Below are positions 32,759 to 37,027 of a DNA stretch of 64,000 bases, piece by piece. Source of the stretch: Methyloversatilis discipulorum (lineage in GTDB: Bacteria > Pseudomonadota > Gammaproteobacteria > Burkholderiales > Rhodocyclaceae). The translations under genes were made by a program, and so were the position numbers. The stretch covers positions 62,001-126,000 of the forward strand of contig NZ_AZUP01000001.1 in NCBI RefSeq assembly GCF_000527135.1, read 5' to 3'. Under the pieces are notes generated by a model. It was not told where the DNA came from. It ran no database searches and was given only the letters and a program-made list of their open reading frames with translations. Every line of letters starts with the position of its first letter. The first letter of the stretch is position 1.

Positions 32759-32783
32759 CAGGCCGTTCTCTTGCTCGAAACGG

Positions 32784-32813
32784 AAAAGGCCCGCGCTGTG
32801 CGCGGGCCTTTTT
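32784..32813 (+). terminator. Terminator after pckG
   Basis: A 13-bp stem AAAAGGCCCGCGC / GCGCGGGCCTTTT with TGT loop, ending in a T run. Confidence 0.94.
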
Positions 32814-32870
32814 CATTTGTCTGTCCGTCGGGCTTGACCAAGTTGCAGCGGATCGCCTACCCTCGAAAAA

Positions 32871-33062
32871 GTTCAGGTGCCCCGCGCGTCCTTCTTCGCG
32901 CAGGGTGAAACGGGAAGTCGGTGCGCAGACCACGAACGGTCTGTCATTCCGACGCTGCCCCCGCAACGGTAGGCGAGTCGTAGCGCCCCACACAGCCACT
33001 GTGCCCATGCACGGGAAGGCGGAGCGCATATTTCCCTCGCAAGCCCGGAGACCGGCCTGGAC
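32871..33062 (+). ncRNA. Cobalamin riboswitch
   Basis: The region shows the conserved parts of the adenosylcobalamin riboswitch in order: P1 strand CAGGTGCC (from 32874), GGGTGAAACGGGAAGTCGGT, then GCTGCCCCCGCAACGGTA, the CCACTGTG and CACGGGAAGGCGG segment, and the B12 box AAGCCCGGAGACCGGCC with the closing CCTG of P1 (33056-33059). It would lower expression of the downstream operon when cobalamin is plentiful. Confidence 0.95.
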
Positions 33063-33247
33063 GGGAGCATTCCGCTCCTTCAAGACCGATGGTTACGGTG
33101 GGTGACCGCGGGACGCATGCGTTCGTCCGCCTGCATCCGGTTCATGCCGGACGCATCGACTTCACCTGTGTTCTCCGCGCTGCCTGTCCGCATTCCATCG
33201 GATTTTCCATCTGCCGGCGGGGGTTGCTGGCGATTGCGGAGATTCGC
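33063..33247 (+). promoter_or_regulatory. Leader between the B12 riboswitch and the first gene
   Basis: No gene is visible. Two small hairpins occur (GGAGC/GCTCC at 33064-33078; CGTCCG/CGGACG at 33124-33153), neither with a U-tract. The switch therefore may act on translation or through Rho; the sequence does not decide. Confidence 0.45.
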
Positions 33248-34042
33248 ATGCGTAACGTATTGACTTCACTTCTCGGACTGGCGCTTGCCAGCGCCGCCCA
33301 GGCCGGGCCTTTCGCACCGGCTGCCGGGCAAGCCGGCTCTACCGCCATTCACAAGGACGACGCGTCCATCGTGCAGTGGGCCACTGGCTGGCAGGACTAC
33401 CGTCCGAACGAGGCTGCCGGTGCCGTCGCCACGACCTGGCGTACGCCCGAAAAAGCGCTGGGCGAGGCGGTCGGCGATTCCTACGACATCGTGTCGCTGG
33501 GCAACGGTGGCACCATCACGCTGACTTTCGACGGCTACATTGTCGACGGCGAAGGCGCGGATTTCGCGGTGTTCGAGAACAGTTTCAGCGCCACTTTCCT
33601 GGAACTGGCCTTCGTCGAAGTGTCGTCGAATGGCACGGATTTCTTCCGTTTCCCGGTCTATTCGTTCACGCCATCCGCCGTGAATGCTTTCGGTTCGGTC
33701 GATCCGACCAATATCGACGGTTTCGCCGGCAAGTATCAGCAGGGCTGGGGCACGCCCTTCGATCTGGCGCTGCTGGCAGGTACCGACGGACTGGACATCG
33801 ATCGCGTCACGCATGTGCGACTGGTCGATGTGGTGGGCAACGGGACCGAGTTCGACGATTTCCCGCTCGCCTACGGCGGTCCGAACCGGATTTACGACCC
33901 CTACAACACGACCGGCAGCCAGGGTTTCGACCTCGATGCGATCGGTGTCATGAACTTCGCCGCTGCGGTGCCCGAGCCGTCGCAGATCGCACTGTTCGCC
34001 GCAGGCCTGGGCCTGATCGCACTGCGTCGCCGCCGCGCCTGA
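33248..34042 (+). CDS. PEP-CTERM surface protein of a B12-riboswitch operon
   Basis: A 264-residue exported protein: signal peptide (1-19), a beta-rich body with [40 protein letters not shown] and [11 protein letters not shown], and a PEP-CTERM tail ([13 protein letters not shown], then RRRRA). Similar [16 protein letters not shown] proteins occur, as far as I recall, beside B12 transport genes in Bacteroidetes, usually as lipoproteins. It starts 185 bp after the cobalamin riboswitch with GGAG at 7 nt. A role in holding cobalamin at the cell surface is inferred from the operon, not shown. Confidence 0.85.
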
Positions 34043-34103
34043 GCCGAACGCTTACCTTCAACCATGGGCTGCGCGCGGCGCGGCTACCGACAGGACATTG
34101 CTT

Positions 34104-34889
34104 ATGAAGACCTCTTCACTCCGTACCCTGCTTGCCGTCGCTCTGGCGACGCTGGCCGGACAGGTCGCCGCGGCGACCGTCACTTTCGAAGATCTGGCAC
34201 TGACACCCGAAAGCCACTTCTTTCCTGAAACGACCACGACCTTCGGCAGCGGCGGGGCGACCTTCAACCACGACTACACCGAGTGGTTTCCCGGCTGCTG
34301 CCATTCCGGTTGGGTGTATTCGAACCGGACCGACACCACCACGGCCGGTCACCTGAATCAGCACAGCGCATTCACCGGTATGGGTGCGAATGGTTCGTCC
34401 AACTACGCCATCGCCTACTTCGGCGCACCGGTTGTCGAGTTCGGTACCGCTGTGCAGGTGGGCAGCGCATCGTTCACCAACACGACCTATGCGGCGCTGT
34501 CCATGCTGAATGGCGACAGCTTTGCCAAGAAGTTCGGCGGAGCGAGCGGCAACGATGCGGACTGGTTCAAGCTCACCGTGATCGGTTGGGACAATTCGGC
34601 GCAGACCGGCGCGGTCGACATCTATCTCGCCGACTTCCGCTTCGAAGACAACAGTCAGGACTACATCCTGGATAGCTGGACGCAGTTCGACCTGAGCGCA
34701 CTGGGTACGGTTACCCGCCTTGAATTCGCCATCGATTCAAGCGATTCCGGTGCCTGGGGCATCAATACGCCGGCCTATTTCGCGATGGACAACCTGAACG
34801 TGACCGCCGTCCCGGAACCGGGTCAAGCCGCCATGCTGCTGGCCGGTCTGGCGCTGCTGGGCGCCGCTGCGCGCCGTCGCCTCGGCTGA
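34104..34889 (+). CDS. DUF4465-like PEP-CTERM surface protein
   Basis: A 261-residue exported protein with a signal peptide (1-23), a DUF4465-type domain (TVTFEDLALTPESHFFPE, TGMGANGSSNYAIAYFG, AKKFGGASGNDADWFKLTV, IYLADFRFEDNSQDYI, WGINTPAYFAMDNL) and a PEP-CTERM tail (VPEPGQAAMLLAG, RRR). DUF4465 proteins are frequent in Bacteroidetes near TonB receptors. It lies second in the B12-riboswitch operon, and its stop is 1 bp before the TonB receptor start. Cobalamin binding is a hypothesis. ATG 34104 has CAGGA upstream. Confidence 0.87.
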   Translation: MKTSSLRTLLAVALATLAGQVAAATVTFEDLALTPESHFFPETTTTFGSGGATFNHDYTEWFPGCCHSGWVYSNRTDTTTAGHLNQHSAFTGMGANGSSNYAIAYFGAPVVEFGTAVQVGSASFTNTTYAALSMLNGDSFAKKFGGASGNDADWFKLTVIGWDNSAQTGAVDIYLADFRFEDNSQDYILDSWTQFDLSALGTVTRLEFAIDSSDSGAWGINTPAYFAMDNLNVTAVPEPGQAAMLLAGLALLGAAARRRLG

Positions 34890-34890
34890 C

Positions 34891-36975
34891 GTGTCGCACG
34901 CTGTCCGCGCGCGCCGCCTCGCCCGGCGAGGTGGCGCGTATTTTTTTGCGGTGCTGGCGCTGCCCGTGGCGAGCATGGCTCGTGCGCAGGCCGACGACCG
35001 GGCCTACGAACTGTCGCCGGTCGAGGTGCGTGCGCGCTTCACGGGCAACCTGCCGACCGACGGCCACAGCACTTCGGTCATCGAGGCCGAAGATATCGAG
35101 CGCTCGGCTGCCACGTCCTTGCCCGAACTGATCGCGCGCGAAGCCAACGTCAATCTGCAGAGCTTGTCCGGCACCGAAAAATGGACTTCGCTGGATATCC
35201 GCGGCATGGGTGAGACGGCATCGAGCAATGTGGTCGTCCTGGTCGACGGCGTCAGGCTGAATGAACTGGACCTGTCCGGCTCTGACCTGTCGGGCCTGAA
35301 CCTGTCGCGCATCGAACGCATCCGCATCGTGCGCGGTGGCGGAGCGGTCCGCGTCGGCGACGGCGCGGTCGGCGGCGTTATCGACATCGTCACGCGTGCA
35401 CCGGCGCCCGGTACCGTGTCCGGATCCTTGCGCGCCGAGGCGGGAGCCTATGGCACGCGCAAGTACACCGGTTCGGTCGCCGCTGGCGCTGGCCCGTTAA
35501 GCCTTCAGCTCACCGCAGGACGGTCGGACACCGATGGTTTCCGCCGCAACGGCTATCTGTATTCGCGCGACGGCTCGGCCGAATTGCGCTTTTCGCCGGA
35601 TGCCCGCTTCAGTGCCTGGGTGCGCGTCGTTCGCCATGTCGACGAATACGGCCTGCCCGGGGGGTTGCCCGCTTCCGTGCTGTCGCAGGGCGAGGCGGCG
35701 CGCCGCGCCGCAGCCAGCCTGCTGAACGGCGGCACGACCGACGATTCGCGCTATATGGCGGGGGCCGACATCGATGCCGGTCCCTTTGGCGTGACGCGGG
35801 TGCAGGCCAGCAGCCGGCTGCGCGAAAACCCCTTCATCATCGGCTGCGTTTCGGCCGGTTGCGATGAGGCACCGATCCGCTCTTCGCGGCATGCGCTGCA
35901 GATCGATCATGAGATCGATCTGCCGTCGGCACTCGGTGCGCGACCGCATCAGCTCGGCTTCGGCCTGAATAGCTGGAACGGCGACTACCAGCGCCATACC
36001 GGATCACCCACGGCCATCGGTACCACCCGGCACTCCGGCGACATTCACAGCCATGGCGGCTATGCGGATGCCAGGCTGGCGCTGGGCGAGCGCTGGACAC
36101 TCAATCTGGGGGCACGTATCGACCGCTTCCGGTCGGATCGCGATACCGAGGTGCTCAGCCTGCCGACCGTCGTCATCCCGGTACCGCCCTTTGTCGCGCC
36201 ATGTACCACCTGTGCGCCGTTCTGGGCGGCGAGTGCCGCGCCGTCGCGGGGCACATGGCGCAATCACGCGCGTGAAATCGGCCTGTCCTGGGACGCAACG
36301 CCAACGCTGTCTATCCATGCCAGCGCAAGCAGCCATTTCCGCAGTCCCAATATTGACGAACTGGCGCAGGCGTCGGCCGACATCCGGCCTCAGAGCGGCC
36401 GCACGGAAGAAGCGGGCATGCGCTACCGGCCGGTTGCCGGCGCCGAACTGGCGCTGTCGGTCTTCCGGATAAGGATCGACGACGAAATCTTCTTCGGCAG
36501 GGACGCCTTCGGCGTCAGCAACAACACCAATTTTCCGTTGCCGACCGAACGCCGTGGCTTCGAGTTCCAGTCGCGCTGGCCGCTGACGTCGGTGCTGCGC
36601 GCCGCTTTCAATTTCGGCTATGTGCAGCCGAAAGCGGACGATTTCGATGGCGACCTGCCCGGTGTGCCGCGGCGCAACGCCAGCCTGCGACTGGACTGGC
36701 AGGTGCTCGAACGGGTCGATGCCACGCTGGCGGCGCGCTATGTGTCGAGCGTGCGCGACAACAACGCCTTCGACGATCCGAATCCGCGCCCGCGACTTGC
36801 CGCCTACACGGTGGTCGACGCCGGCATGCGCTGGCGGCCGCATGGCGAGGCATTGTCGATGAGCCTGTCGGTGAACAATCTGTTCGACCGGGCTTACGCG
36901 ACGCGGCAGTACAGCGGGGACGTGTACCCGATGCCGGGACGGCATGTCATGGTGGCCGCCAGCATGACTTTCTGA
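34891..36975 (+). CDS. TonB-dependent outer-membrane receptor, probably for cobalamin
   Basis: A 694-residue receptor: signal peptide (about 1-33), plug domain (about 42-165 with [55 protein letters not shown]), and a 22-strand-type barrel with the C-terminal [20 protein letters not shown] and terminal aromatic Phe. Substrate cannot be read from the sequence, but the riboswitch points to cobalamin (BtuB role). It starts with GTG 34891, 1 nt after the previous stop, so its translation is probably coupled. A later ATG would remove the signal peptide. Confidence 0.9.
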
Positions 36976-36997: not shown

Positions 36998-37027
36998 CGA
37001 CAAAGCCCGCACAAGCGGGCTTTGTCG
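36998..37027. terminator. Bidirectional terminator between the TonB receptor and dnaJ
   Basis: A 13-bp perfect stem CGACAAAGCCCGC / GCGGGCTTTGTCG with ACAA loop between convergent genes. Confidence 0.85.

Follow-up and report, generated by a model that had tools for sequence, protein, structure and literature searches.

A riboswitch-linked pair of PEP-CTERM proteins beside a TonB receptor in Methyloversatilis discipulorum: a probable corrinoid-scavenging unit

In Bacteroides, cobalamin (B12) uptake loci are under riboswitch control and encode surface proteins of the BtuJ family and of the BtuH type beside a TonB receptor. These loci comprise BtuJ, BtuH, BtuL, BtuG, BtuB, BtuF, BtuC, and BtuD, and their surface proteins, including BtuG, are lipoproteins (see also the available text of PMC10404256). 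One such element from Bacteroides finegoldii (L084) carries genes for DUF4465, PKD-like/BtuH, lipoprotein, YncE, receptor, and ABC transporter parts in the order that the available text of PMC12751083 gives for operon 2 of Bacteroides thetaiotaomicron; its BtuH was confirmed by 7BIZ, and its BtuL was placed by gene order only. The available text of PMC13398666 (2026) reports that eight divergent members of the DUF4465 family bind B12, and it describes a conserved HI-loop motif that contains a B12-binding tyrosine. Among PEP-CTERM proteins, the available text of PMC10957091 describes ZepA, a zinc-scavenging exoprotein found in the exoproteome, and part of a paper on PEP-CTERM proteins and riboswitches describes PEP-CTERM genes beside cyclic di-GMP riboswitches. 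We analyzed a 64,000-nucleotide stretch (i.e., the window) of the M. discipulorum genome (4.3 Mb, single contig; NZ_AZUP01000001.1, positions 62,001 to 126,000), in which a cobalamin riboswitch precedes two PEP-CTERM protein genes (P1 and P2) and a TonB receptor gene. The parts are known, and their combination, a variant of surface B12 capture, was not found described. The first-pass annotation of the window had inferred a B12 capture design not known to have been described for PEP-CTERM bacteria; this stands insofar as no PEP-CTERM B12 system was found in the literature searched, the scope of which ended short of subscription papers and preprints, and it is qualified by the zinc precedent of ZepA.

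The locus resembles the Bacteroides loci in its riboswitch control and in the placement of BtuJ-family and BtuH-type proteins next to a TonB receptor, whereas its two surface proteins carry PEP-CTERM tails, its genome contains no match to PF16819 (BtuG type), and its BtuF-, BtuC-, and BtuD-like genes lie at a separate locus. It is similar to the ZepA case (as far as the available text of PMC10957091 describes it) in that genes for TonB receptors lie nearby and a PEP-CTERM protein would capture a nutrient that is scarce. It differs in the nutrient (B12 instead of zinc) and in the control (a riboswitch instead of the FUR-family regulator Zur). The features of the window are listed in Table 1. 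The riboswitch matched RF00174 over the full model (positions 1 to 189; E = 1.9e-28) at 116.2 bits, where the gathering score is 31.5, so that the covariance-model search upheld the full cobalamin riboswitch of the first-pass annotation. P1 (264 amino acids) and P2 (261 amino acids) start with ATG and the receptor (694 amino acids) starts with GTG. The P1 start codon lies 173 nucleotides after the riboswitch, P1 and P2 are separated by 61 nucleotides, and, as first annotated, a single nucleotide separates P2 from the receptor gene, the product of which has Plug and beta-barrel domains. The terminator-like hairpin preceding the riboswitch sets the unit apart from the upstream gene.

Table 1. 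Positions of the features discussed (window features are numbered along the window; tandem frames are given as locus and position).
Feature	Position	Strand	Details
Terminator-like hairpin, between upstream gene and riboswitch	32782-32814	+	Terminator listing, 15 pairs
Cobalamin riboswitch aptamer	32858-33074	+	RF00174, 116.2 bits, full length
Protein 1 (P1)	33248-34042	+	Signal peptide (by eye), BtuH-like discoidin-type domain, PEP-CTERM tail
Protein 2 (P2)	34104-34889	+	Signal peptide (by eye), DUF4465 (BtuJ family) domain, PEP-CTERM tail; PF14717, PF07589, PDB 9hmu_A
TonB-dependent receptor, plug nearest BtuB among solved sequences	34891-36975	+	PF00593, PF07715
Terminator-like GC-rich hairpin, then ATTTTTTT, within first receptor codons	34909-34939	+	14 pairs
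12-bp inverted repeat without T tract, 3' of receptor	36999-37026	+	Absent from terminator-like listing
Tandem P1-P2 frame	L030:7785-9488		
Tandem P1-P2 frame	L087:2031-3716		
Tandem P1-P2 frame	L089:2675-4561		
Tandem P1-P2 frame	L090:6267-7970		
Tandem P1-P2 frame	L091:5973-7676		
Tandem P1-P2 frame	L094:5353-7239		
P1 frames with GCF[IVL] end			L029, L037, L039, L041, L043, L044, L045, L047, L048, L051, L063, L064

On the basis of its score and its conserved HI-loop motif, P2 is assigned by sequence to the BtuJ family. It matched PF14717 (DUF4465) at 176.4 bits (gathering cut-off, 25; E = 9.1e-52), in agreement with the earlier description of the second protein as DUF4465-like, and the nearest solved sequence was PDB 9hmu_A (E = 2.6e-33), from the B12 complex of Coraliomargarita D5EK51 (9HMU). 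The motif NTPAY is present within GINTPAYF (residues 219 to 226), and N221, P223, and Y225 are invariant across 25 aligned sequences, that of the window included. P2 differs from the described family in its PEP-CTERM tail; neither "PEP-CTERM" nor "exosortase" was found by a term search of the main text of PMC13398666. Both proteins exceeded the PF07589 (PEP-CTERM) cut-off of 20.7 bits (P1, 24.2; P2, 28.7), which bears out the PEP-CTERM tails initially reported. The genome encodes two exosortases (PF09721 matches above the cut-off) and contains 67 PEP-CTERM matches.

Its fold and a local match between profiles make P1 a divergent relative of the B12-binding domain of BtuH. The two BtuH-containing chains ranked first and second among the 987 aligned with P1 in a second look, with identities of 16 and 20% across 163 and 162 aligned residues, respectively. 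The profile match (hhalign) reached a probability of 94.6 and an E value of 7e-8, compared with a best E value of 0.016 among 50 column-shuffled control profiles. The equivalent of BtuH Asn399 is retained in all 83 rows of the P1 family (i.e., the window plus 82 of the 93 P1 domain matches; two copies of the window's own P1 and nine partial matches, including the sole match of L077, cut by a contig edge, were left out). P1 shares a fold and, probably, a conserved contact asparagine with the C-terminal domain of BtuH (7BIZ; also within BtuG1, 8BLW), while it is shorter, is of low identity, contains no PKD domain detectable with Pfam, and has no lipobox cysteine. Because no Cys occurs in the first 30 residues and a PEP-CTERM tail is present instead, we refer to P1 as a BtuH-domain relative and not as a BtuH lipoprotein. 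The first-pass annotation had suggested a comparison of both PEP-CTERM proteins with BtuG and BtuH; for P1, the comparison with BtuH held, and that with BtuG gave no match (E = 0.75 against a Bacteroides sequence placed as BtuG). Kinship of P1 with BtuL was likewise rejected (E = 0.33 against the Bacteroides sequence placed as BtuL), and P1 and P2 did not match each other (E = 0.25).

No Pfam or NCBIfam model names the P1 domain, and the C-terminal portion of BtuH from Bacteroides is likewise without a Pfam domain call. A Pfam scan of 25 members of the P1 family returned sorting tails and otherwise weak matches only (best E value, 0.022). The family is large, with 5,890 matches at E values of 0.001 or less among 8,000 candidates, the weaker of which may match the tail only. 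In many P1 proteins, the BtuH-like stretch gave a weak local match, far below the cut-off, to NF033170 (LIC_13355 lipoprotein), a family that may, to go by these matches, be a further BtuH-type family.

The linkage of the PEP-CTERM pair to a cobalamin riboswitch, for which the first-pass annotation had suggested a survey, was beyond chance. The order of the window was sampled evenly (300 genomes). DUF4465 occurred in nine of these genomes and full-length P1 (i.e., over 100 bits) in the same nine; 11 further genomes had a weak P1 match towards the tail, and RF00174 was present in 258. In all nine cases (the window and eight other regions, for which a DNA profile and a protein search were used), P1 was preceded by a riboswitch and P2 was followed by a TonB receptor gene. 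A scan across phyla yielded at least 587 stretches, at least 510 of which encode a P1 relative; the following counts concern the best 80 loci kept, the closest of which to P1 is from Methyloversatilis thermotolerans (81% identity). Cultured relatives that have the unit include M. thermotolerans (L004) and Methyloversatilis sp. XJ19-49 (L006). Of the 80 loci, 58 had P2 nearby, 58 had a riboswitch, and 55 had a detected receptor; 37 combined the three, and BtuC- or BtuF-like genes were present in 16. Away from the upstream contig edge (65 loci), the corresponding numbers were 54 for the riboswitch, 47 for the receptor, and 49 for P2. A riboswitch was counted only if it lay within 6 kb upstream of P1 and was detected by cmscan or by a DNA profile (E < 1e-3) built from 25 sequences (24 loci and the window), which match by construction. 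RF00174 was present somewhere in 73 of the 79 genomes searched (49/50 and 24/29). The other six are Puniceicoccales, Opitutales, Opitutaceae, Coraliomargarita, and Kiritimatiellales records; in one of them (L078), the locus carries RF01482, a related family. Several gene orders were seen after the riboswitch (P1-P2-receptor, receptor-P1-P2, P2-receptor-P1, and P2-P1), and no plasmid record carrying P1 was found.

The genome of the window has a second cobalamin riboswitch (locus at L003:6821-17159), which is followed by a BtuB-like receptor gene, BtuC- and BtuD-like genes, a corrinoid adenosyltransferase gene, cobB, and two BtuF-like genes, with cobQ upstream. The adenosyltransferase, CobB, and CobQ, which represent late corrinoid assembly, scored above the NCBIfam cut-offs. 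We call the transport proteins "like" and not equivalent, since none of them reached its NCBIfam equivalog cut-off and other transporter models gave higher scores for the BtuC- and BtuD-like proteins. Three B12-binding-domain matches in the genome exceeded the cut-off; for cobM/cbiF, none did so, and two matches to one model were below it.

We consider the locus to be, probably, a riboswitch-controlled corrinoid-scavenging unit. From the computed families, folds, linkage, regulatory element, exosortases, and BtuCDF-like system, we infer binding, processing, and hand-over as follows. When cobalamin is low, the riboswitch would permit expression of the genes, as expected from its family. P1 and P2 would be exported through their N-terminal signal peptides, and an exosortase would process the PEP-CTERM tails, leaving the mature domains at the surface of the cell or within the exopolysaccharide matrix. 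There, P2 (BtuJ family) and P1 (BtuH-domain type) would bind cobamides and raise the local supply for the adjacent TonB receptor. Through this receptor, the cobamides would reach the periplasm and become available to the BtuF/BtuC/BtuD-like system of the second riboswitch locus. The earlier proposal that exosortase-type surface proteins gather cobalamin for the receptor is thus supported, with binding predicted from the relationships of P2 and P1, and it is further backed by the linkage in the order (9/9) and across phyla (37/80), the two exosortases, and the Btu-like genes at the second riboswitch. A PEP-CTERM pair would be linked to a single nutrient, the identity of which is indicated by the riboswitch itself; surface B12 capture of the Bacteroides type would extend to Proteobacteria and other phyla, and a function could be proposed for the large P1 family.

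Several results weigh against this interpretation. No riboswitch was counted in 22 of the 80 loci (11 of them among the 65 away from the upstream contig edge), and 18 and 16 of these 65 loci were without a detected receptor and without P2, respectively. No expression platform was evident in the leader of the window on folding (z = -0.85). The sequence match between P1 and BtuH is limited to 35 columns, the comparison covers one (Asn399) of the BtuH contact residues, which also include Gln333, His476, Tyr510, Trp511, and Trp577, and BtuH is missing from Foldseek's own top 50 for P1, which consists mostly of discoidin/CBM-type folds. The receptor, whose best PDB match is BtuB (E = 9.5e-19; plug region only, with E. 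coli BtuB as the nearest solved sequence), scored 153.9 bits with the BtuB equivalog TIGR01779, short of the cut-off of 599.7, and slightly higher with the siderophore model TIGR01783 (178 bits, also below the cut-off). The BtuB-like protein encoded at the second riboswitch of the genome scores higher with TIGR01779 (399.6 bits) and is likewise below the cut-off. Finally, co-expression of the receptor is not assured, because a strong terminator-like hairpin stands at the start of its gene.

A variant of the scavenging model, for which we see a somewhat less than even chance, holds that P1 and P2 are loose instead of docked to the receptor and act as a B12 sponge in floc or biofilm, as proposed for zinc and ZepA. 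PEP-CTERM proteins are described, in the portions of the literature available, as bound for the exopolysaccharide matrix, and ZepA occurs in the exoproteome; the absence of a PF16819 match is consistent with such a sponge, as are the B. thetaiotaomicron pull-downs in the available text of PMC8941943, in which BtuH2 was not enriched by BtuB2 and BtuG2 was not robustly enriched by BtuH2. However, the receptor adjoins the P1-P2 pair in all nine genomes of the order sample, and a private path to the receptor is therefore favored over a loose sponge. The discoidin- and CBM-type domains that dominate the Foldseek list, together with the local BtuH match, would also suit a P1 that is a generic, nonbinding discoidin/CBM32-type domain tethering P2 or the receptor to glycan, with P2 as the sole capture protein; since BtuH ranks first in the second look, we keep this as an unlikely rival and not as the best explanation. 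It is similarly improbable that the substrate of the unit is a different corrinoid or a precursor of cobamides, or that B12 is retained for ends other than uptake (e.g., protection or competitor exclusion): incomplete corrinoids would be useful given the late corrinoid assembly genes at the second locus, but the linkage to a receptor and the control by a riboswitch suggest that whatever is taken up ends as cobalamin.

The P1 module appears with different tails in different lineages. PF07589 matched 20 of 25 aligned P1-family proteins, and a P-E/V/L/I-P motif with a basic end, as read by letters, closes 36 of the 80 P1 frames. A type IX sorting tail scored above the cut-off in all six Bacteroidota P1 proteins scanned, and no tail match was obtained in ten Verrucomicrobia- or Kiritimatiella-type P1 proteins scanned. 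There was also no NCBIfam sorting match in ten P1 proteins from Desulfobacteraceae/-ales (six), Deltaproteobacteria (three), and Proteobacteria (one) records. A C-terminal GCF[IVL] end is common to 12 of the 80 frames, including these ten, and possibly represents an unnamed sorting tail.

P1 and P2 are fused in one open frame in seven of the 80 loci; L075, a Paludibacter record, has P1-P2 with a single type IX tail. Of the nine genomes in the order sample, five have a tandem frame, as does L030 (Table 1). These six frames begin with a signal peptide and P1, followed by a PEP-CTERM stretch with arginines; next come another hydrophobic, signal-like segment that ends in an AxA-type sequence (by eye), P2, and PEP. 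With Pfam, the internal PEP-CTERM was the sole stretch in four of the six tandem frames, and two stretches were found in the other two. This arrangement suggests a possible exosortase-cut polyprotein. A broader reading, for and against which we find the chances evenly balanced, is that a BtuH-type and BtuJ-type module pair occurs across phyla with lineage-specific tails (PEP-CTERM-like in Proteobacteria, type IX in six Bacteroidota loci, and an unnamed GCF type in Desulfobacterota-type loci), and that some genomes of the order make a tandem precursor that exosortase and signal peptidase cut into equal amounts of two B12 binders. If so, PEP-CTERM proteins would serve as protein-type B12 scavengers in the biofilm matrix, and one binding module would have been refitted with different tails in each lineage.

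Seven terminator-like sites were listed in the window, versus 3.6 expected from shuffles, and the two hairpins in Table 1 have the most pairs among them. The inverted repeat 3' of the receptor, where a terminator had first been annotated, was ruled out as an intrinsic terminator for lack of a T tract. In view of the hairpin within the receptor start (fold, -32.2 kcal/mol; z = -3.1), a reading of the locus as a simple operon of three genes needs qualification. By itself it would stop part of the transcripts after P2, which would yield more capture protein than receptor; ribosomes passing from P2 to the receptor start could keep it unfolded. A similar hairpin (stem of at least 8 pairs, loop of 3 to 8, and T-rich tail) was found in one of 34 other loci, and the same search gave none in the eight order-sample regions, three of which (L088, L092, and L093) are the same loci as L015, L021, and L033. 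In L015, a 9-bp repeat followed by CTTTTTAT resembles the hairpin of the window, with a loop longer than this limit. Perfect inverted repeats of at least 8 bp occurred within 100 nucleotides 3' of P2 in 11 of 22 loci, compared with 4.8% of 1,320 pieces taken at random. These 11 loci do not include the window, the stem of which has G-T pairs; since, in addition, the 22 loci include several near-relatives and the random control was not restricted to intergenic DNA, this excess is only a hint of differential expression. In a single stretch of a Verrucomicrobium record (L032), three copies of P1 accompany two cobalamin riboswitches.

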